From NCBI GenBank assembly GCA_028066245.1, contig JALCBR010000030.1, forward strand, positions 1-37,244: 37,244 nt of DNA. The letters run 5' to 3'. How positions within the stretch are numbered: the first letter of the stretch is position 1; the number at the start of each line of letters is the position of its first letter. Below are positions 21,041 through 31,239 of the stretch, in pieces. The DNA comes from Pirellulales bacterium. Its GTDB lineage: Bacteria; Planctomycetota; Planctomycetia; Pirellulales; S012-138. The notes under the pieces are model-generated. The model saw only the letters and a list, made by a program, of their open reading frames with translations, had not been told where the DNA came from and did no database searches. The position numbers and the translations under genes were made by a program.

Positions 21041-21889
21041 CTACTTGGCGACTTTCACGGGTACGCAATAGCTGAGTTCAACAATCTGCTCCCCGGCAAA
21101 GAAGCCCGTGAAATCACCAGTGGCCGTGAGTTCGTCGCCAGCTTCCATTTCGGCCACACGGTACTCCTCGAAGACCGTGAAAATGCAACTGATGCGGAGG
21201 CCATCTTCACCCTCCAGCAGGACGCGCGAATCACCGGCTTGGTTGTAGCCGACTTCCAAAACGGTCCCGGTGACTTGAATGGGTGTATCTTCGTAGGCGG
21301 CAGTGGCCAATTCTGCGTCGAATGAGAATTCCGCTGCTAGGTTTGATGCGGGAATGGAAATGATGCTGCCTTTGCCTGCCAATTCGATGGTGGCATCTAT
21401 AATCACAAGTTCATGCTTTGACATCCGCCCACTTACCAGAACGAGGTCGCCAAACCAAATCTCTTTCCATGGTTTTGCCTCCCGGGTCAAACATTTCAAT
21501 CCGGAAGAGAGTTTGATGAAGGGATCTCCCGCTTTGATCAGTTGTCCAGAATCCGTTCCCTGATCTATTTCATGTCCGACATCCGAGACCTGTCCCGAGA
21601 TTCCCAATGTTCGCCCGCCGAGTGCCTCCAGCACAGCATTAGGATCGGCAGCATACGCGTCAACCAGATCAATCGCCATGAACGTCGATTGCGTGTAGTC
21701 GAGCGAAAGTCGATTGCCGCTTACCGGATTCGGTTGATTGGTGTCGCTGGATTGGGTTGCTTGAGCCTTCGCGGCGGACTCATCGGAACTTTGTTGTGAA
21801 GATGGTTCCTCTCCACAGCCGCAAACCAACGCGAACGACAGGCATGCGATGCCGTGGCGCGTTGAGAGTAAGAGGATGCGTCGGAACAT
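21041..21889 (-). CDS. Lipoprotein with two OB-fold (tRNA_anti-like) segments
   Basis: About 282 residues from ATG 21889. The signal peptide (LLSTRHGIACLSFALV) ends in lipobox VCGC; the mature N-terminus is Ser/Gln-rich and flexible. Two related units follow. The first has DAYAADPNAVLEALGGRTLGISGQVSDV and then VSGRMSKHELVIIDATIELAG. The second has ELATAAYEDTPIQVTGTVLEV and LTATGDFTGFFAGEQIVELSYC. The pattern Y..D...A...Y.G..L.V.G.V matches the tRNA_anti-like OB family of secreted bacterial proteins, whose ligand is unknown. The frame can be read from 21931, but the shorter start gives the proper signal. It is divergent from the M20 peptidase. Confidence 0.82.
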   Translation of the reverse strand: MFRRILLLSTRHGIACLSFALVCGCGEEPSSQQSSDESAAKAQATQSSDTNQPNPVSGNRLSLDYTQSTFMAIDLVDAYAADPNAVLEALGGRTLGISGQVSDVGHEIDQGTDSGQLIKAGDPFIKLSSGLKCLTREAKPWKEIWFGDLVLVSGRMSKHELVIIDATIELAGKGSIISIPASNLAAEFSFDAELATAAYEDTPIQVTGTVLEVGYNQAGDSRVLLEGEDGLRISCIFTVFEEYRVAEMEAGDELTATGDFTGFFAGEQIVELSYCVPVKVAK

Positions 21890-22100
21890 GGACAAGTCCG
21901 TTTGTGCGATTCTTGAGGTTCGCCGTGTCACAGCGTCTCCACTACGTGAAAGTCCTGCCTCAGGACTCAGTTCACCGGTTTGTGATCTTCATGACCGTCA
22001 ATTCTGCTTCAAGCTGGCGTGCGCTTCATGCGTAAATTCTAATGGCGACAACCAGAACCTCGCGTTTCAAACCTCACCATATGTTCGATTGGTGGAAACC

Positions 22101-23645
22101 ATGAAACCCTGCATCATCCAAACCATTTTGACATTGGGAATCGCATTCGCCAACGCCGTTGCTCCGGTATTCGCCGATGAGGTTGGCGACAGCGTGCGGA
22201 GCTACCGCCAGAGCCGTGCGACCGACATCTTGCAGTCCTTTCGTGAATTCGTTTCGATCCCCAACGTCAGCGCAGACGGAGCAAACATTGGTCGTAATGC
22301 AATCTGGATTCGTGACGAACTCAAGAAGCGAGGCGTCGCATCTAAGATCTGGGATCTGCCCGGCGCGAACCCTGTTGTCTTCGGCGAGTTGAGGTCTCCT
22401 GCTGCCACGCGGACCGTTGTCTTCTACGCCCATTTCGATGGACAGCCTGTCGATGAATCGCAGTGGTTGCACGCGCCATTCACGCCAACGCTGATGAATG
22501 CGGACGAGAGTGCCGGTGGCGAAGCCATCGCTTGGCCAGAATCAGGTGAGGGTTTTGAGATACCTCCCACGGATGAATGGAGAATGTATGGGCGGGGAAC
22601 CTCAGACGATCGAGCTGCCGTGATGGCAATGCTGACGGCGATGGATGCGTTGCAGGCAAATGGGTTGTCTCCCCAAGTGAACATCAAGTTTCTCTTTGAT
22701 GGCGAAGAGGAGATCGGTTCGCCAAATCTGCGACGATATCTGGAATCACACCGGCAAGAGTTGGACGCCGACTTGTGGCTGTTTTGTGATGGCCCCGTTC
22801 ATCAGACGCGCAAGCCGCAGCTCGTGTTCGGTGTTCGTGGTATCGTTCAGTTTGACCTGACGGTCTACGGCGCCAATCGCCCTTTGCACAGCGGGCACTA
22901 TGGCAACTGGGCTCCCAACCCGGCGTTGAACCTGGCCAAGCTGTTGGCGAGCATGAAGGATTCTCGTGGGGAAATCTTGATTGATGGCTTCTATGAATCG
23001 ATTGAACCGTTGGGTGGGCGAGAATTGGATGCCATCTCCAAGTTGCCCAATGTCGATGATGGATTGTTGTCCGAACTAGGACTTGCGGAGCGGGAGAATC
23101 CCACTCGCGACTACTACCAGAGTCTGATGTTTCCCTCGCTTAACATTCGGGGCCTGCAAAGCGCAACAGTCGGCAAAACGGCCCGCAACATTGTTCCCAA
23201 TGAGGCTTCAGCTACGCTCGACATTCGCCTGGTCAAAGGGAATGAGCCGGGAGAGATGCTCAAACTTGTCCGCAACCACCTTCAACGCCAGGGCTACCAC
23301 ATCGTCTATTCTGATCCCAGCGATGAGCTTCGCCGCAAGTACCCCAAGCTTGTGAAATTTCAATCCGGCGGCGGAACACCTGCAGAGCGAACTCCTCTTG
23401 GCCACCCGCTCGTCCAGGATGTGATCACAGCCGCGGACTTGGCCTCGGATGAGGAATTGCTTCTGGTGCCAACGCTAGGAGGCACTCTTCCGATTTCGGT
23501 GATTACAGACCGCATGGCCGTGCCAGTCGTCATCGTGCCAATTGCCAATCACGATAACAATCAGCATGCGCCCAACGAGAATATCCGCCTGGGCAATCTA
23601 TGGTACGGTGTGGACGTCATGGCCCGACTGTTCCTCATGAAATAG
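22101..23645 (+). CDS. Exported M20-family metallopeptidase
   Basis: About 514 residues from ATG 22101 (GGTGG ten bases upstream). The signal peptide is CIIQTILTLGIAFANAVAPVFADE. The M20 zinc sites are all present: His in VFYAHFDGQP, bridging Asp in YGRGTSDDRA, the catalytic/zinc Glu pair in FDGEEEIGSPN, Asp in FCDGPVH, and His in NQHAPNENI near the end. The dimerisation domain (HSGHYGNWAPNPALNL onward) is intact. This pattern is the dipeptidase/carnosinase-like subgroup. As an exported enzyme it probably trims dipeptides in the periplasm (inference). The frame stays open upstream to 21849, but that part overlaps the divergent lipoprotein gene and lacks a signal. Confidence 0.93.
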   Translation: MKPCIIQTILTLGIAFANAVAPVFADEVGDSVRSYRQSRATDILQSFREFVSIPNVSADGANIGRNAIWIRDELKKRGVASKIWDLPGANPVVFGELRSPAATRTVVFYAHFDGQPVDESQWLHAPFTPTLMNADESAGGEAIAWPESGEGFEIPPTDEWRMYGRGTSDDRAAVMAMLTAMDALQANGLSPQVNIKFLFDGEEEIGSPNLRRYLESHRQELDADLWLFCDGPVHQTRKPQLVFGVRGIVQFDLTVYGANRPLHSGHYGNWAPNPALNLAKLLASMKDSRGEILIDGFYESIEPLGGRELDAISKLPNVDDGLLSELGLAERENPTRDYYQSLMFPSLNIRGLQSATVGKTARNIVPNEASATLDIRLVKGNEPGEMLKLVRNHLQRQGYHIVYSDPSDELRRKYPKLVKFQSGGGTPAERTPLGHPLVQDVITAADLASDEELLLVPTLGGTLPISVITDRMAVPVVIVPIANHDNNQHAPNENIRLGNLWYGVDVMARLFLMK

Positions 23646-23930: not shown

Positions 23931-26900
23931 ATGAAACGCGTGAATATCGGCCTGATGGCGTTGGCGTTGCTTACGCTCTCGCTTCCGGCGGCGAGCCGCC
24001 TGCATGCCGATGAGCCCGTTGATCAGTTCCTTTCGGCGTTGCGTGCTCGCCAGATGCACGACGTCGTAATTCTCTATTTGGAGAATCTGAAATCCGGAAA
24101 TGAGCTGTCTGCGGACCTGCGTGAACGGGTGGACTACGAGATTGGACTGGCTCATTTGGACCAGGCAATCACAATCAGTGATCCCGCGGACCAGTTGCAA
24201 AGTCTGGTCGCGGCCCAAGAGTCCTTTGACGCTTTCCTGCAAGCCCAACCGGAGCACGTTCATGCGTTAAATGCACGCATGCAATTGGGTGTCGTCCAGC
24301 TTTGGCGGGGACGAAATCTGTTGCGAATCGGCGAGAAACTGCCTGCCCCGCAGCAGTCGAAGCGTAGTACTGATGCCCGTGAGTTGTTTGACGACGCTGG
24401 CAAAGTTTTTGCCGAAGTTTCCGTCGCTGCGGAAGCCAGGCTCGAGGAATTTCCCAAGGTCATTGATTCCCGCCAAAGGAAACTTTTGGCCGAACGCAAC
24501 GCCGTCCGAGACGCAATCGTCCGGTCAGAGATTTACGAGGCTGAAGCACATAAAGCCACTGCGGAGAGTTACCCCGATGGGTCCAATGAGTGGGAAACGG
24601 CCATCAAAGCTGCCGGTTCCAAATTCGAAGCCATTGCTAAAAAGTACGCTGAAAACTCAGCTGGAAGTTTTCTGGCACGTCGCGGCAGTGCCGAATGCCT
24701 GTTGGCGTTGGGCGATAAACCCAGAGCACTCGGGGGCTACCAGTCGCTTGTTGCTCTGCGCGACGTTGACCCATACGTCCGCGGCCAGCAATCGCTCTTG
24801 GTTCCCAAAATCCTTGAACTGATGTGTGACCCGGAGATTGCCGATATCCGCGGCGCCATTGCCTTGGGGGAGACTTGGCTGACGGGGGCTCGCGGCGCGG
24901 AAGGCCAGACGCCCACGGGACTTGCCGTCCACTATTGGGTGGCTCAGGCTCAAAACATGCGGATCGAAGAAATCAAAGCCGACGAAGAAGCGAGTGCTTC
25001 GCAGGCAGGACAGCGTGAGATGCGAGAGTTGGGTCAAGCGGTACTCAAGCATGTCGAGCTTGTCGCTTCGCGTCGAGGTCCGTTTCAGCGTAAGTCGCGT
25101 GAGTTGCTGGTTGCCTATCGCGGTGACGAGGAGGTTCGAGTTACGACTTTTATCGAGGCGCGCAGCAGAGGTCAATCAGCGTTGGACTATTTTCGAGAAC
25201 TCGCCTCGCCACCTGAGGCAGAATTGACGCCAGATGAATTGGACCAGCGCCAAGCCGAGAAGAACAAAGCCCTGGAGAAAGCAATCGAGTATTTCCGTTT
25301 GGCATTGGCGCTCGGCCGAGAAACTGTGACAGCCGATGAAACCAACTACGCGCGTTACTACCTTTGCTTCTGCCATTTCCATCACGGGGACTACTATGAC
25401 GCGGCCGTGATTGGAGAGTTCGTCGCGCGTAAAGAACCGACCTTTGAGTTGGCTCAAGCCTGCGCTCAGCTTGGCTTGGAAGCCTACCGTCAGATTTATT
25501 TCTCCGACAACCGAGGCGACCGCGGGTTTCAAACGCGGCGACTGGAGCAAATGGCCAGCTTAATTGCCAAACAATGGCCCAATTCAGAAGATGCTGACGC
25601 AGCCTGGATGTTACTCTCTGATCTGGCCATCGCCAGCAACAATTATCCCCAGGCGGCAGCATATCTCGATCGGATTTCGGCGGAGTCACCACGCAAAGGG
25701 GTGGCCATCCTCAAGGCCGGACAAGCGGTTTGGGGACAGTATGCCGCGCTGTCCGCGGCCAACGGCTCGGAACAAGAACTTGCAGGCTTACTTGAGCGTG
25801 CCGAAACAAACTTAACTGACGGCGTGAAGAAGGCTCGTGATGCTTTGGTCGCTGGCGCCGCTCCTTCCTACGACTTGCTGGCTGGAGAGCTTTCTTTGGC
25901 GCAGCTCTATTCTCGGTCCGGCCGCACTACACTTGCGGCAGACTTACTGCTTCGTGAGCAGGGTGTGATTGAAATGCTCGAGAAGGGCATTGTTGGTGGT
26001 TCCCCTCAGTTTCCACAGATTGCTTATCGCACCGCCTTGCGATGCTTTGTTCAGGCGGGAAACATGGATGCGGCGCTGGGAGTGATGCAGCAACTCAACG
26101 AACAGGCAGAGGGGGACGGGAAAGCTCAACGTGAACTGACGAGAACGTACCTGGGTTTGGGAAACGAACTCTCCCAGCAACTCAAAGCGCTTCAGCAAGA
26201 TACCAACAAACGAGCACAACTGGCCAAGATGGCCGATGGGTTCCTCGGTGTGCTCGATCAAATTGCCGATAATCCTGAAGGCGCGGCCTTCAATGAAATC
26301 TATTGGGTCGCCAGTACGTACGGCACGTTGGGCGAAACTCTCGCCGAACTCAATGCAGACAAGTCGAGAGGTTGTTATGACAAAGCGCGTAGGCTGTATG
26401 AGAAGTTAGTTGCTGACCCGTCAGTTGAAGAACAATACCGCAATCCGTTGCGTGTTCGCCTGGCCGAGAGCTATCGTTTCATCGGCAACGAAGATTCCAT
26501 GCAGAAAGGAATCAACCTGCTGCTGGCTGTTTTGAACTCAAATGAGAACTTTGTGGACGCTCAGCAGGAAGCGTGCCAGATCTTTGAGCGCTGGGGAGAC
26601 ATCTCCAATCAAGCCGCATATTACGACTTGGCAATCACTGGATACCGAGATCCCAACTCGCAGAAACGCTTGGTTTGGGGTTGGGCAACTTTGGCGAGTA
26701 AGGTTCAGCGAAGCGAGAGCTACCGCGATATGTATCACCTCGCCCGGCTGAACGTGGCCGAATGCCGTTTCAAGAAGGCAATGAAGCAGTCTGGCGAAGA
26801 GCAACAGAAGTCATTACGGCAAGCCAAAGGTGATATCGCAGTCACCATACGGCTGGGTGATCCATCTCTTGGGGGCGATGCCTGGAAGCCACGCTATGAA

Positions 26901-26978
26901 AGCTTGCTCAAGAAGATCCAAAAGGAATTGGGACAAAGCCCGCAACTTGGACTCAAGGAATTTCAAACTCGCAATTGA
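23931..26978 (+). CDS. Large exported TPR-repeat protein
   Basis: About 1015 residues from ATG 23931 (an ATG at 23898 is also in frame). The signal peptide NIGLMALALLTLSLPAASRLHADE is followed by an almost wholly helical chain of degenerate tetratricopeptide units, for example ANYARYYLCFCHFHHGDYYD-type helices near residue 470 and WMLLSDLAIASNNYPQAAAYL near 565. There is no membrane segment after the signal, so it is probably periplasmic. It lies 72 bases (counted to the second gene's start) ahead of another exported TPR protein and then ExbB/ExbD genes. Guilt by position suggests a scaffold or load for that motor. No catalytic motif is visible. Confidence 0.85.
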   Translation: MKRVNIGLMALALLTLSLPAASRLHADEPVDQFLSALRARQMHDVVILYLENLKSGNELSADLRERVDYEIGLAHLDQAITISDPADQLQSLVAAQESFDAFLQAQPEHVHALNARMQLGVVQLWRGRNLLRIGEKLPAPQQSKRSTDARELFDDAGKVFAEVSVAAEARLEEFPKVIDSRQRKLLAERNAVRDAIVRSEIYEAEAHKATAESYPDGSNEWETAIKAAGSKFEAIAKKYAENSAGSFLARRGSAECLLALGDKPRALGGYQSLVALRDVDPYVRGQQSLLVPKILELMCDPEIADIRGAIALGETWLTGARGAEGQTPTGLAVHYWVAQAQNMRIEEIKADEEASASQAGQREMRELGQAVLKHVELVASRRGPFQRKSRELLVAYRGDEEVRVTTFIEARSRGQSALDYFRELASPPEAELTPDELDQRQAEKNKALEKAIEYFRLALALGRETVTADETNYARYYLCFCHFHHGDYYDAAVIGEFVARKEPTFELAQACAQLGLEAYRQIYFSDNRGDRGFQTRRLEQMASLIAKQWPNSEDADAAWMLLSDLAIASNNYPQAAAYLDRISAESPRKGVAILKAGQAVWGQYAALSAANGSEQELAGLLERAETNLTDGVKKARDALVAGAAPSYDLLAGELSLAQLYSRSGRTTLAADLLLREQGVIEMLEKGIVGGSPQFPQIAYRTALRCFVQAGNMDAALGVMQQLNEQAEGDGKAQRELTRTYLGLGNELSQQLKALQQDTNKRAQLAKMADGFLGVLDQIADNPEGAAFNEIYWVASTYGTLGETLAELNADKSRGCYDKARRLYEKLVADPSVEEQYRNPLRVRLAESYRFIGNEDSMQKGINLLLAVLNSNENFVDAQQEACQIFERWGDISNQAAYYDLAITGYRDPNSQKRLVWGWATLASKVQRSESYRDMYHLARLNVAECRFKKAMKQSGEEQQKSLRQAKGDIAVTIRLGDPSLGGDAWKPRYESLLKKIQKELGQSPQLGLKEFQTRN

Positions 26979-27050
26979 GCGTTCCGCACAATCTGGAATT
27001 GGCTTAACCCGCCGATGAAGAACAACCGCTCGCACAATCCAACACCTGAC

Positions 27051-28124
27051 ATGAAAAATTTCGCCACCGTTTCACGCTTGGTCGTTTCCGTCGGACTCGC
27101 CTGCGCATGCGTGCTAATATTTGCCGGTCCAGCTCTTGCTTTAGATACGATTCGTCTTGCTGGTGAGAGTATCAACGGAACAATCCAGTCGATGACGAGA
27201 GACGAAGTTGTCATCAGGGAAGTTGGCAACAGTGAGCCACGCGCCATTTTGGTCGATGAGATCATCTCGATTTCTTTCAGCGGAGCCCCGGCAGCAATGC
27301 AGACGGTTGTCGGCCAGATGGAGTCAGGCGACTACAACGGAATGCAGCGCACTTTGGAGCTGCCATCGTTGGCCTTGGACAAGCTGACCGATAACCAAGT
27401 GAAAGCAGAGGTTAGTTTCTGCGCTGCATATGCCGCTGCCAGAAACGCGCTCAATGGCAATGGCAATCTGGAAGCCGCTGGTCGCGATATGCGGGCATAC
27501 GTGGACACTCACCCCAATCACTGGAGATATTACGCGGCCGCGCAGGCTTTGGGAGAGTTGTACAGCGCCGTTGGGGCTGAGGATGAGGCCATTCGAGCAT
27601 TTGCGCTCTTGCGAGCTGCCCCCAGTAAGGAGATCAAACTCAATGGCGCCATGGCGCAGGCTCAGTCGATGTTGGCCAGCGGCCAACACGAGGGTGCGAT
27701 GGCTTTGTTCAAAGAGGTTTTGGACGACGGCGGAAGTTCCGAGTTGGCCAAGGTTCGTTTGATGACTGCGGAAGTTGGTCTTGTCGCCTGCCAGGCACAA
27801 CTCGGCCAAGCGGAGGAAGGCATCAAGATCATCAAAAACATCATTGACGAAGGCGATGCGGAAAACGCCAGCCTGTTCGCAATGGCCTACACAGCGCTTG
27901 GGAATTGCCATCTGGCCAAGGGAGAAAACAAGGATGCCCTGCTGGCGTTCCTTCACGTGGAATTGCTGTACCCCTCACAGTCTCGTTACCGTGCCGAGGC
28001 TTTGTACCATTTGTCCCGCTTATGGGGGGAAGTCGGACAGGGAGAACGGGCCGTGCAGGCTAGGCAGATTTTGCTGAGTACGTACTCTGATTCCGTGTGG
28101 GCTCGCAAGAGCGAAGGTCGGTGA
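27051..28124 (+). CDS. Exported TPR protein with N-terminal beta domain
   Basis: About 357 residues from ATG 27051; ATG 27015 in the same frame would add 12. The signal peptide is VVSVGLACACVLIFAGPALA. The first 50 mature residues look like a small SH3-like beta barrel (IRLAGESINGTIQSMTRDEVVIREV). A tetratricopeptide array follows, including YYAAAQALGELYSAVGAEDEAIRAFALL and MAYTALGNCHLAKGENKDALLAFLHVELLYP. The last motif resembles YbgF/CpoB, the periplasmic partner of Tol-Pal in proteobacteria. This fits its place directly upstream of ExbB/TolQ- and ExbD/TolR-like genes. Direct homology to CpoB is not claimed. Confidence 0.85.
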   Translation: MKNFATVSRLVVSVGLACACVLIFAGPALALDTIRLAGESINGTIQSMTRDEVVIREVGNSEPRAILVDEIISISFSGAPAAMQTVVGQMESGDYNGMQRTLELPSLALDKLTDNQVKAEVSFCAAYAAARNALNGNGNLEAAGRDMRAYVDTHPNHWRYYAAAQALGELYSAVGAEDEAIRAFALLRAAPSKEIKLNGAMAQAQSMLASGQHEGAMALFKEVLDDGGSSELAKVRLMTAEVGLVACQAQLGQAEEGIKIIKNIIDEGDAENASLFAMAYTALGNCHLAKGENKDALLAFLHVELLYPSQSRYRAEALYHLSRLWGEVGQGERAVQARQILLSTYSDSVWARKSEGR

Positions 28125-28447
28125 GCACGGATTCTTAGAGTGTGGGGAGTGCACCTCGCAGTAAAACTTTACCGTTTCTGCGCGCCAAGATAGACTGAAA
28201 GTTACCCGCAAATTCGACGGTCGCTACAGATTGTTGATTTGTAAGCCGTGCACGGTTCACTTTCGTACATGGCTCAGGCTGAAAACGCGACGACGGTATT
28301 GACCGGACTTTTGATTAATCGTCGTTTGTCATGTCATGCACCGCGTTGTGCTCATAGCCCAAGTCCCCTCAAGATTTTCATCGCAAATCTGATCGCGCGA
28401 GTCGCAGTCAGCGGCACAAAGCGCGAATTTTCCCCACGGAGCCATTC
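28125..28447. other. Gap between second TPR gene and exbB-like gene
   Basis: 323 bases with no supported gene. It contains no intrinsic terminator with a T run, so read-through from the TPR genes into the motor genes is possible. A ribosome site (GGAG, seven bases before the ATG at 28448) lies at its right end. No promoter could be identified by eye. Confidence 0.45.
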
Positions 28448-29314
28448 ATGTCGTTTTGGTGCAAGACCCTGTCAGGCGTGATCGCCTGCCTGACTGTTTG
28501 GGCGTTGTCCGCATCCGTTTCTCTCGCCCAGGACGACGGAGGCCAGGACCCCGTATTTCAGCCGCCGGGTAATGACGCAGGCGGCGCCGGCGATCAGGGG
28601 GGAGGTGACGCTCCGGCCGCTGGAGGAAACGGAAAAGCCAACGAGAGCGAATCGTCATCTGACTCGGCACCATCGCAAAACCGGTTGGTGGCGATGTTCA
28701 CGGCCTTAGGTCTGTGGTTCAGTCCAATCTTCCTTGCGTTGTCGTTCATTCTTGTCGCTTTGATCGTGATGAACATCATGACGGCTCGACGCGACGCCGT
28801 GGTTCCGATCGCCTTGGTTGAAGACTTTGACGCACTCTTGGAACAAAAGAAATACCAGGATGCCTATGAGCTGGCCAAACAGGATGAATCTGTGTTGGGA
28901 CAGGTGCTCTCCGCGGGCCTCGCCAAGGCGTCGCAAGGCTATGAGGAAGCTCTCGAAGCCATGCAGGAAGTCGGTGAAGAAGAGAACATGAAGATGGAGC
29001 ATCGGCTCAGCTACATGGCGTTGATCGGTACCATCAGCCCAATGATCGGATTGTTCGGCACCGTGGCAGGCATGATCGGGGCATTTGACACCTTGGGCGG
29101 AACAGCCGCTGGTGCGCCACCAGCCACCGAACTGGCCAAAGATATCGCAACGGCTTTGTGGACCACGTTCGTGGGACTAGCGATCGCCATTCCGGCTATT
29201 GCTGCGTACAACATCATGCGCAATCGTGCCGCTCGGCTAATGCTAGAGGTGGGCATCATCAGTGAGAACTTGATGAGCCGCGTCAGGGCAGGAAGCGGCG
29301 GCGCCACCACATAG
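28448..29314 (+). CDS. MotA/TolQ/ExbB proton-channel family protein
   Basis: 288 residues. A cleavable signal peptide (IACLTVWALSASVSLAQ) and a Gly/Ala/Asp-rich linker precede three membrane helices: IFLALSFILVALIVMNIM near residue 100, LSYMALIGTISPMIGLFGTVAGMI near 190, and DIATALWTTFVGLAIAIPAIAAYNI near 240. The Thr of GLFGTVAGMI and the conserved polar residues of the last helix line the proton path in ExbB/TolQ. The signal peptide plus low-complexity extension is characteristic of planctomycete copies and absent from Escherichia coli ExbB. With the two following ExbD-type proteins it should form a proton-motive-force-driven inner-membrane motor. Confidence 0.95.
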   Translation: MSFWCKTLSGVIACLTVWALSASVSLAQDDGGQDPVFQPPGNDAGGAGDQGGGDAPAAGGNGKANESESSSDSAPSQNRLVAMFTALGLWFSPIFLALSFILVALIVMNIMTARRDAVVPIALVEDFDALLEQKKYQDAYELAKQDESVLGQVLSAGLAKASQGYEEALEAMQEVGEEENMKMEHRLSYMALIGTISPMIGLFGTVAGMIGAFDTLGGTAAGAPPATELAKDIATALWTTFVGLAIAIPAIAAYNIMRNRAARLMLEVGIISENLMSRVRAGSGGATT

Positions 29315-29437
29315 CCTGTCATCAGTGGACGCGCCTGATTGAATCATATGCGTTCCTTTCGGTCTTATCTGCGCATTTGTCTTGATCGTGTGACGCATTG
29401 ATCCTCTCGACATTGATTCCTTTCCACCGCGTTTGTC

Positions 29438-29908
29438 ATGCGATTCAAACCTGCACAAGTCAAGTTGCTCGAGGCGGATTTGACTCCGTTGATCGATTTG
29501 ACCTTTCTCTTGATCACGTTCTTCATGTTGGTCATCAATTTCGCCAAGGCGGAGCTCGATGACAGCGTGCAGCTGCCGGAAAGTGAAATCGCCCAACCCC
29601 CGGAAGATTCGGAAGAGTCCGCAATTACATTGCAGCTCACCGCAGACAATCAGGTGATCATGAAAGGCCAGCAGTTTCCGTTTGGTGAACTGCAGCGCCG
29701 CCTGGAAAGTGAAGCCCGGTTTTACACGGAGTTCTTCGAGCAAAGCCCTTCTGAGACCGACGTTATCATTCGTGCAGACCGCCGCTCACAGGGAGGCTAT
29801 GTGCGACGGATGATCGATACCTGCCAAGATGTCGGGTTTTCCAAGTTTGTGCTGCGTGCCAAGCAATCTGCCGGTGGCGGATCGCTGGATGTCTCCGTCT
29901 CGCAGTAG
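29438..29908 (+). CDS. ExbD/TolR-family protein, first copy
   Basis: 156 residues with one N-terminal membrane helix and a periplasmic domain. The key motif is DLTPLIDLTFLLITFFMLVINFA, where the Asp of the helix (PLIDLTF) is the protonatable residue of ExbD/TolR. The periplasmic part includes DDSVQLPESEIAQPPEDSEE, then a TolR-like strand/helix domain (ITLQLTADNQVIMKG and later DVIIRADRRSQGGYVRRMIDTC). It starts 123 bases after the ExbB-like gene. Its own weak start context (no clear Shine-Dalgarno) is shared with the next gene. Confidence 0.93.
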   Translation: MRFKPAQVKLLEADLTPLIDLTFLLITFFMLVINFAKAELDDSVQLPESEIAQPPEDSEESAITLQLTADNQVIMKGQQFPFGELQRRLESEARFYTEFFEQSPSETDVIIRADRRSQGGYVRRMIDTCQDVGFSKFVLRAKQSAGGGSLDVSVSQ

Positions 29909-29958
29909 AGAACTGGTCAAACCCCTGCACAATTTGATCTGCCTGTTGAAACTTTGCC

Positions 29959-30459
29959 ATGAAGATTCGCCACAGCATTGAGACCGGTCAAGTCAAGGCT
30001 GACACGCAGATGACGCCGATGATCGATGTTGTCTTTTTGCTGCTGATCTTCTTTCTGGTCACATTCAAGATCCCCTCTCGAGAAGGTGATTTTGACATCA
30101 CGATGCCACCGCCGGAGTCATCTGGCCCGCCAGAGTCAACCGCGCCATCGCTGATTGTCAAGATGACCGCTGGCCCGAATGGTGAACTGGCCGATTTGAT
30201 CTACAAGGACACGTTCGTGTCTGGAAACTCGGACGCAGAACGGTTTGACAATCTGCAACTGATGATCGCAAAAGATCTGGAAATCATCGGTCCGGAAACG
30301 GCCGAAGCGCCAGAAGTCGAGATCGATTATGACTTCGGCCTGCAGTACGGCTACGTCATGACGGCCATCTCGCACATCAATGGCCGATACGTGAACAACC
30401 AGCTTGTCGACATGGTGGAGAAGATCCGCTTCACACGTCACCCCGAAGACAGGAACTAA
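29959..30459 (+). CDS. ExbD/TolR-family protein, second copy
   Basis: 166 residues, 50 bases downstream of the first ExbD-type gene. The helix carries MTPMIDVVFLLLIFFLVTF, again with the essential Asp in PMIDV. The periplasmic domain differs strongly from the first copy (FDITMPPPESSGPPE, then DYDFGLQYGYVMTAISHINGRY). Two unlike ExbD proteins per ExbB suggest a heteromeric stator or two alternative couplers. No terminator with a T run was seen after the stop. Confidence 0.94.
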   Translation: MKIRHSIETGQVKADTQMTPMIDVVFLLLIFFLVTFKIPSREGDFDITMPPPESSGPPESTAPSLIVKMTAGPNGELADLIYKDTFVSGNSDAERFDNLQLMIAKDLEIIGPETAEAPEVEIDYDFGLQYGYVMTAISHINGRYVNNQLVDMVEKIRFTRHPEDRN

Positions 30460-30614: not shown

Positions 30615-30911
30615 TCAGTTGAGTTCGTCCAGTGGACCGAAACCGTCAGTCTCATCGCTGTCGAACTCGCGATCGAAAAGATCGCTCACGGCCGCAGCCA
30701 ACCGCTCAGGCGTGTCATACGTTCCTTCGGCAACTTGACGACGAATTGCCGCCAGTCGACTGGCTCTCGATGGTTCAGGTTCCTCGCCGTGATACCGCAT
30801 AGTCCAAGGTTGTTGAATTCGACGATTGATCAGGCCATTGATGAGATCGTGAGAAGCGTCTGTCCGCCAACGCCTCGTGCTCCCAAAGTAGAGTTGTGCG
30901 TTGCTGCTCAT
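30615..30911 (-). CDS. FlgM-like anti-sigma-factor candidate
   Basis: 98 residues from ATG 30911 (the frame opens back to 30980). The C-terminal half has the FlgM pattern: SRASRLAAIRRQVAEGTYDT, then PERLAAAVSDLFDREF, comparable with the ..I..L...I..G.Y......A..ll helix pair by which FlgM binds sigma-28. The N-terminal half (QLYFGSTRRWRTDASHDLIN) is basic and not FlgM-like. No flagellar gene is in the window. It could be a true FlgM encoded away from the flagellar cluster or an unrelated short helical protein. It is convergent with the second ExbD-type gene. Confidence 0.55.
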   Translation of the reverse strand: MSSNAQLYFGSTRRWRTDASHDLINGLINRRIQQPWTMRYHGEEPEPSRASRLAAIRRQVAEGTYDTPERLAAAVSDLFDREFDSDETDGFGPLDELN

Positions 30912-31239
30912 GGTCTTGGGAACGTGGGTCCGGTGTGCTGATGGAGAAAACATCGGTGCACAACGGTATGATCCCGTCAAAAAAATCGCTCCCTGGCACT
31001 GATCTGCAAGACCGGTGCAGACCAGCGCGAAAAATATCGGTCATGCGCCGCGAAGGGCGTATCCCGCGTGCTGGCCAGAACCCGTACGCGCTGATTTTTC
31101 CGATATGCCGGAGAATCGCTCGCGTGCTGGACACGCCTCAGGTGCGGCGGATTCAGCTTCTTCCATCGCAACTGACATGAATTGTCAGCGGCACAAGGCT
31201 CGGAGATCGTATGCTACACGGCAACGATTTCAGAGCCGA
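30912..31239. other. Gap between FlgM-like and MaoC genes
   Basis: 328 bases upstream of the FlgM-like gene and downstream of the MaoC gene (both minus). No open frame here is convincing. Two AT-rich patches, AAAAATATCGG near 31030 and TTTTTCCGATATG near 31095, stand out in a GC-rich context but do not form a recognisable sigma-28 or housekeeping promoter. No terminator was seen for the MaoC gene. Confidence 0.4.

Follow-up and report, generated by a model that had tools for sequence, protein, structure and literature searches.

The subject of this analysis is a block of five genes located at positions 23931-30459 of a stretch of 37,244 nucleotides, hereafter "the window", from a Pirellulales bacterium (assembly GCA_028066245.1, contig JALCBR010000030.1, forward strand); the window is contig C42 of a genome of 4.94 Mb that is 97.5% complete. 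The open reading frame (ORF) list and the Pfam matches place the five genes on the + strand in the order TPR1-TPR2-ExbB-ExbD1-ExbD2, i.e. two exported TPR proteins, an ExbB/TolQ-like pore subunit and two unlike ExbD proteins, in agreement with a first-pass annotation made from the sequence alone, which had described TPR proteins of about 1015 and 357 residues in front of a motor on the same strand.

TPR1 (23931..26978) is an almost all-helical protein of 1015 residues, counted from the ATG at 23931 in a frame that is open from 23898; TPR2 (27051..28124; 357 residues from 27051, open frame from 27015) consists of a beta domain followed by a TPR superhelix. Both proteins match TPR_19 above the Pfam cut-off (2e-06 and 7.7e-07, respectively). 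After a gap of 323 bases (28125..28447), the ExbB gene (28448..29314; 288 residues) matches MotA_ExbB with an E-value of 3.2e-27 and 95.2 bits, the cut-off being 22.9; it is followed by ExbD1 (29438..29908; 156 residues) and ExbD2 (29959..30459; 166 residues), which match the Pfam family ExbD at 7e-22 and 78.3 bits, and at 6.8e-12 and 46.0 bits, respectively (cut-off 25.4). The signal peptides of TPR1, TPR2 and ExbB have been read by eye and recur in relatives. The low-complexity periplasmic extension of ExbB (28529..28672, about residues 28-75), also delimited by eye, is rich in Gly, Ala, Ser and Asp; in 18 aligned relatives an extension is seen by eye at the same place, rich in Ala, Pro and Glu in most of them, so that the signal peptide and extension first described for this ExbB are features of its relatives as well.

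The PDB profile matches of the block motor include TolQ and ExbB. No component of the block reaches an NCBIfam equivalog cut-off for Ton or Tol, the best scores being 80.3 of 221 bits for TolQ and 37 of 127.3 bits for TolR; as these values are far under the cut-offs, the block cannot be counted among the standard Ton and Tol operons.

Conservation of the block in Planctomycetota

As a single query, TPR1 has matches in 24 of the 294 genomes of the phylum, its own included. Up to 20 kb have been examined around each of the strong matches in 20 other genomes, which belong to the order of the window and to another family of its class (f4); three genomes with weak matches (G029, G169 and G225) have been left out of this comparison, and no full block is reported for the stretches of G169 and G225 or for an extra stretch of G087 (L061-L063). 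All five genes are found in the same order and on one strand in 18 of the 20 loci, while the remaining two, from a single genus (G087 and G105), have TPR1-TPR2 without an adjoining motor.

At E<=1e-30, a TPR1 profile has matches in 196 of the 248 genomes of the class, including 64 of the 65 genomes of the window's order (its own genome and family among them), a count that takes the unlisted misses as sorted after G555, the order's only miss among those listed. An ExbD2 profile, scored on at most 14 candidates per genome, has matches in 130 of the 248 genomes at E<=1e-18, and all 130 are also TPR1-positive. Positions for both genes are listed in 123 genomes (seven further ExbD2 genomes have TPR1 matches with no TPR1 position listed; 13 TPR1 rows of other families, none with an ExbD2 match, and 6 second or partial ExbD2 rows are excluded), and in 109 of them ExbD2 lies 2.5-4.3 kb downstream of TPR1 on the same strand. 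A survey of synteny had been named in the first-pass annotation as the check on the block, and a lack of conservation of the TPR genes next to the motor genes as the outcome that would refute it; with 18/20 and 109/123, the TPR genes remain beside the motor genes over much of the class, and the envelope-motor reading passes this check.

A contig scan with TPR1 as the sole query gave 59 stretches, among them no relative. A scan of named relatives with the ExbB alignment, of which the best 80 of at least 562 places have been kept, shows the full block in 12 of these 80 (L064-L071, L073, L074, L078 and L079) and a block cut by a contig end in one more (L075); the titles include Blastopirellula, Mariniblastus, Pirellulaceae, Planctomycetaceae and Thermoguttaceae.

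The ORF families of the flanks, compared across 24 loci, are a different matter: few are in common and none occurs in most loci, some of the ORF picks of this comparison being antisense artefacts over ExbB and ExbD. The five genes thus stay together while their flanks turn over, and with the end genes side by side in 109/123 genomes and the whole order kept in 18/20 loci, their conservation goes beyond chance; the block is a real, old module.

Some local variation has also been recorded. An extra ExbD copy lies behind or between the usual two at L037 (6671-7141), in G574 and G580, and at L074. The gap between TPR2 and ExbB spans 8-354 bases in 18 relatives, with starts taken from the longest ORF; within 28125..28447, promoter-like sites are no commoner than in shuffled sequences, the terminator scan gives the same result, and Rfam has no match there, a tRNA being the sole match of its scan. 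Directly upstream of the block, the gene at 21849-23645 (+) reads by eye like an M20-type peptidase and has no family in common with the flanks at any other locus of the comparison; a frame at 30618-30980 (-) has a weak FlgM-like match (E 0.0039), under the Pfam cut-off.

The ExbB tree, split blocks and partial forms

In a maximum-likelihood tree of 127 ExbBs, those of the block form one clade of 39 rows (support 99/89). Both TPR genes are present in the examined stretch for 32 of these rows; the other seven (L072, L076, L077, L183 and L191-L193) are mostly cut, short or split loci. Its sister, a clade of 16 rows, is made up of motors from other families of the class together with those of the genomes G087, G105 and G555. 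ExbB-ExbD-ExbD motors of the sister clade are found at L096, L184, L188, L194-L202 and L204-L207, most of them in such other families and some in genomes without a TPR1 match.

TPR1 and ExbD2 are non-adjacent in 14 of the 123 genomes, and some of these cases may be contig breaks. Two single-contig genomes provide true splits: in G494, TPR1-TPR2 lies apart from ExbB-ExbD1-ExbD2, and in G583, TPR1 lies apart from TPR2-ExbB-ExbD1-ExbD2; the latter piece, TPR2 with the motor, is also seen in G512 and G550. The motor trio of G087 is located on another contig, with its ExbB inside the block clade. Since the breakpoints differ and all parts are kept, the split forms support the view that the five genes are one functional set.

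In three genomes (G105, G456 and G488), TPR1-TPR2 persists without a motor following it, and none of them has an ExbD2 match among the up to 14 candidates scored per genome; at L072, conversely, a motor trio of the block clade has no TPR gene found upstream. Such forms would be expected if the five genes were neighbours by vertical inheritance only and did not constitute one machine; however, the split parts are retained, and the five genes hold together through the turnover of their flanks, so that we consider this explanation very improbable. G105 is a single contig in which all 50 ExbB candidates have been scored, and the best one falls in the sister clade. The same holds for the best ExbB of G555, the order's listed TPR1 miss; sister-clade motors may be the partners of TPR1-TPR2 pairs that lack the block motor.

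ExbB and both ExbDs retain the residues of the proton path. Residue T205 of ExbB (29060..29062), which we take to be the pore Thr of the second transmembrane helix, is Thr in all 39 rows of the block clade and in every row counted in the other clades; in the pair T239-T240 (29162..29167), presumably the Thr pair of the third transmembrane helix, T240 is Thr in all ExbB rows counted and T239 in 39/39 rows of the block clade. The membrane residues D20 of ExbD1 (29495..29497) and D23 of ExbD2 (30025..30027), to which we assign the proton-carrying role of the family, are each invariant (19/19) in the respective alignment. As the Thr residues of ExbB and the Asp residues of both ExbDs have been kept, a working proton path that uses both ExbDs is likely.

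Paralogous motors of the same genome

The genome contains seven MotA_ExbB loci, the window included. One is a MotAB pair beside flagellar-type genes, which by eye reads as flagellar-type. The locus L054 (contig C43) has the order vWA - TPR2-like - ExbB - two ExbD - TPR protein of 929 residues; in L056 and L057, a TPR-ExbB-ExbD set is succeeded by a large protein whose enzyme-like matches are weak; L058 is an ExbB-ExbD-ExbD set, and L059 is a divergent set. In the profile comparison, TPR1 and TPR2 are linked to their counterparts in L054 with probabilities of 97.0% (520 columns) and 91.6% (296 columns), respectively, whereas the hhalign values of TPR1 against the TPR proteins of L056 and L057 are weak (1.6% and 35.6%). 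The paralogous locus L054 thus resembles the block in its list of parts and in the remote profile similarity of both TPR proteins, but differs in having the vWA gene first and the big TPR gene last, and in its ExbB, which falls in a clade of its own kind (24 rows, of which 17 are vWA loci; support 95/80), separate from that of the block.

The large proteins at L056 (10452-12515; 687 residues) and L057 (3158-7288; 1376 residues) have weak pectic-lyase- or squalene-cyclase-like matches; the former carries a membrane helix with the S-x3-H motif and may be an undescribed type of transducer.

Search for a transducer

The absence of TonB, claimed at first for the block, extends to the whole genome (97.5% complete), which has no match to TonB_C, a model whose controls are positive in E. 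coli, Caulobacter and Bacteroides. TonB_2, used for TolA, has no match in the genome either, its control being positive only in Bacteroides and missing the TolA of E. coli. No TolB is found above the cut-off in the genome, the best score being 77.3 of 343 bits.

Among the 36 block-type loci, which include the window, two TPR-only loci, one motor-only locus and two loci cut by contig ends, our helix filter finds no gene with an S-x3-H membrane helix (0/36); the same filter is positive for 9 out of 20 motor loci of other kinds, picked by hand, although it is a simple one that misses some vWA loci, e.g. L138. The vWA profile gives only one match of 20 bits among the block-type loci, in L065. As a rule, therefore, the block has no linked transducer.

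A serious alternative, though in our judgement a less likely one than the TPR-coupled motor described below, is a transducer that acts in trans and is driven by this motor, such as the vWA protein encoded at the paralogous locus or some unrecognised protein, with the TPR proteins as accessories, as in the vWA loci described for PVC bacteria (PMC12204202). Homologs of vWA occur elsewhere in all 21 TPR1-bearing genomes searched, 19 of which, the window's own included, have an intact block. Of 111 sequences scanned, 26 have some ORF for which the vWA profile gives the best call, and in 20 of these the frame lies upstream of ExbB, mostly in Phycisphaerae and other planctomycetes; a TonB-type S-x3-H helix is present in 14 of 21 picked frames of vWA loci, several of the other seven being wrong-strand frames. 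At L129 and L138 (titles Verrucomicrobiaceae and Blastochloris), the order is big TPR-small TPR-ExbB-ExbD-ExbD-vWA, i.e. a vWA frame directly follows a set of genes arranged as in the block, and in the split block of G550 (L227) an S-x3-H/vWA-like gene, the one positive of the helix filter among the split loci, is located about 3.6 kb from TPR2, on the opposite strand.

The docking site for such a transducer may also have been kept in part. In the E. coli structures, Ser16 and His20 of TonB are placed against Ser34 and Trp38 of ExbB, with Pro190 behind (PMC12215075). The equivalents of S34 and P190 in this network are kept in 39/39 block ExbBs, in a mapping that rests on the Ser and on the spacing of four, the alignment having no E. 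coli row. The W38 column holds Val in 38 of the 39 and no Trp in any clade counted, a Trp being found one column on in 3 of the 24 rows of the outermost group and in one other row; given that all clades counted are without Trp in this column, its absence from the block ExbBs does not discriminate. Against a transducer in trans, in 13 of 30 vWA loci no more than 1.5 kb separates the vWA frame from one that is TPR2-like or ExbB-like, so that these vWA genes come with motors of their own, and the one vWA match of the window's genome is located inside its own motor cluster.

Two motor loci from Kiritimatiellae and Lentisphaerae continue with a protein of 585 residues (L131:9671-11428) and of 535 residues (L115:5974-7581), respectively; these proteins have an apparent membrane helix near the start and no vWA-profile match, and may be another kind of transducer.

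Predicted structures and possible tasks

The AlphaFold2 model of TPR2 (pLDDT 92, pTM 0.83) has a five-stranded beta domain (residues 32-75), followed by the TPR superhelix; that of TPR1 (pLDDT 86.7, pTM 0.48) is a helical superhelix, locally confident and globally loose. In the fold search, the first 400 residues of TPR1 resemble the peptide-binding TPR domains of the LGN type (Z 22.9, root-mean-square deviation 4.0, 292 residues), and such a region would suit the binding of extended segments, e.g. of the ExbB extension, which we offer as speculation. As the fold-search matches are generic TPR relatives, no function is drawn from them.

TPR2 matches the YbgF-like model TIGR02795 with an E-value of 7.7e-14 and 52.3 bits, under the cut-off of 90.1, and its profile matches the CpoB structure 6g5s with 1.1e-07. 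Planctomycetes are not known to have FtsZ, and the block might substitute for Tol-Pal, with TPR2 as a CpoB/YbgF-like protein and the motor keeping the outer membrane in step with division. The lack of a TolB above the cut-off and the near-universal TPR1-profile match in the order (64/65) are consistent with this proposal, as are the matches to the YbgF/CpoB models below their cut-offs; these matches are generic, however, and engineered TPR proteins score better, which leaves the proposal improbable.

The homology of the motor to ExbB and ExbD would also suit an uptake motor, i.e. a TonB-like energising of the import of large substrates across the outer membrane, in which the TPR proteins would act as adaptors in the periplasm. 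One TonB-dependent receptor is found above the cut-off in the genome, on contig C109 (1766-3145, L236), and with no TonB_C match it is a receptor without an obvious transducer; but it is single and on another contig, and any gene family of the flanks recurs in a few of the 24 loci at most, so that we regard an uptake motor as more improbable still. Both proposals concern the task of the motor, and may overlap either with a transducer in trans or with the model that we favour.

A proposed TPR-coupled envelope motor

Our tentative preference, held over a transducer in trans and somewhat short of calling it probable, is that the five genes encode one envelope machine, a motor that is scaffolded by, or coupled to, its TPR proteins. 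Five ExbB subunits would enclose one ExbD1 and one ExbD2, and this hetero-ExbD pair would act as an asymmetric axle driven by the flow of protons; TPR1 and TPR2 would form a pair in the periplasm that docks on the periplasmic domains of the ExbDs, on the ExbB extension, or on both, and that serves either to place the motor or to take up its force, in the way that PflA and PflB of Campylobacter hold the stators. Because a transducer of the TonB, TolA or vWA type is usually not found beside the block, the TPR pair is most likely the direct partner of the motor. Outer-membrane upkeep, uptake and surface motion are candidate tasks.

Several observations weigh against this model. Of the 196 genomes with a TPR1-profile match, 66 are without a block-type ExbD2 match: 59 belong to other families, whose weaker TPR1 matches may be to a paralog, and 7 are in the order of the window or in family f4 (G105, G456, G488, G530, G564, G594 and G597). 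The three TPR1-TPR2 pairs with no motor behind and the motor trio of L072 are further cases of one part seen without the other. The TonB-docking Ser and Pro have been kept in all 39 block ExbBs. The TonB of E. coli is itself encoded away from exbBD, so that the absence of a transducer gene beside the motor is no proof of its absence. The TPR models match many unrelated scaffolds in the fold searches, and the likeness to PflA and PflB would be one of domain plan and role, not of homology.

The envelope-motor reading of the first-pass annotation has gained support from the TPR genes that stay beside the motor and from the retention of the split pieces. Its further suggestion, in which the large TPR protein may serve as load or scaffold of the machine, is compatible with the predicted models and with the analogy of PflA and PflB.

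A stronger form of the TPR-coupled model, which we think unlikely as a whole, would dispense with the transducer altogether: the ExbD1/ExbD2 axle would act directly on the TPR superhelices, which would take the place of TonB, TolA or vWA, in a machine conserved among Pirellulales and Planctomycetaceae-like planctomycetes, whose cells would also contain a vWA-linked motor distinct from it. The envelope biology of planctomycetes is poorly understood. Whether an ExbBD-type motor must have a TonB-like transducer, or whether TPR scaffolds can take the load, is a question that the TPR1 match in 64/65 genomes, the separable pieces and the vWA-bearing paralog in the same cell make directly testable.

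Comparison with known systems

The motors of Tol-Pal and Ton share the MotA_ExbB and ExbD families and the pore residues with the block, which differs from them in having two unlike ExbDs and two TPR proteins, and no TonB domain in the genome.

The long ExbB of Serratia marcescens likewise has a signal peptide and an Ala/Pro-rich, disordered periplasmic extension, but that extension contacts HasB, a TonB paralog, whereas no such partner is known for the block (PMC9008036).

For the two TPR proteins, an analogy is offered by PflA and PflB of Campylobacter, the two-TPR scaffold of 5:2 motors, for which the authors contemplate a Tol-Pal origin (PMC12222027). In both cases there are two periplasmic TPR proteins, one of which has an N-terminal beta domain, together with motors that are 5:2 in Campylobacter and would be so in the block; the Campylobacter motors are, however, of the flagellar MotAB type and not ExbBD, and the beta domain of the block protein comprises only about 45 residues. 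A chain of the Campylobacter scaffold entry (9hmf_K) is ranked 3 by Foldseek for TPR2 and 30 for TPR1, among generic TPR folds, and is absent from the 50 VIA-align rows listed for each of the two models.

The nearest relatives of the block are loci of the Planctomycetes-Verrucomicrobia-Chlamydiae (PVC) bacteria, for which a study from 2025 describes genes for TPR and TolQ-like proteins, for a pair of unlike TolR-like proteins and for a vWA "force transducer", with unknown function and no phenotype reported for vWA-linked motors of this kind (PMC12204202); the first-pass annotation had likewise considered the function of such planctomycete motors to be undefined. Both have in one cluster a TPR gene, one TolQ/ExbB-like gene and a pair of unlike TolR/ExbD-like genes, but the block is without an adjoining vWA gene with an S-x3-H helix and its ExbBs form a separate clade; the block is a variant of these loci without a linked transducer. 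In the open-licence literature, as far as its texts are accessible, no description of a vWA-less block has been found. The kind of locus that combines TPR, TolQ-like, two TolR-like and vWA genes is already known from the 2025 study cited above; what is described here as new is a lineage that has two TPR proteins and no vWA gene, together with its distribution, the separate clade of its ExbBs and the forms in which it is split.

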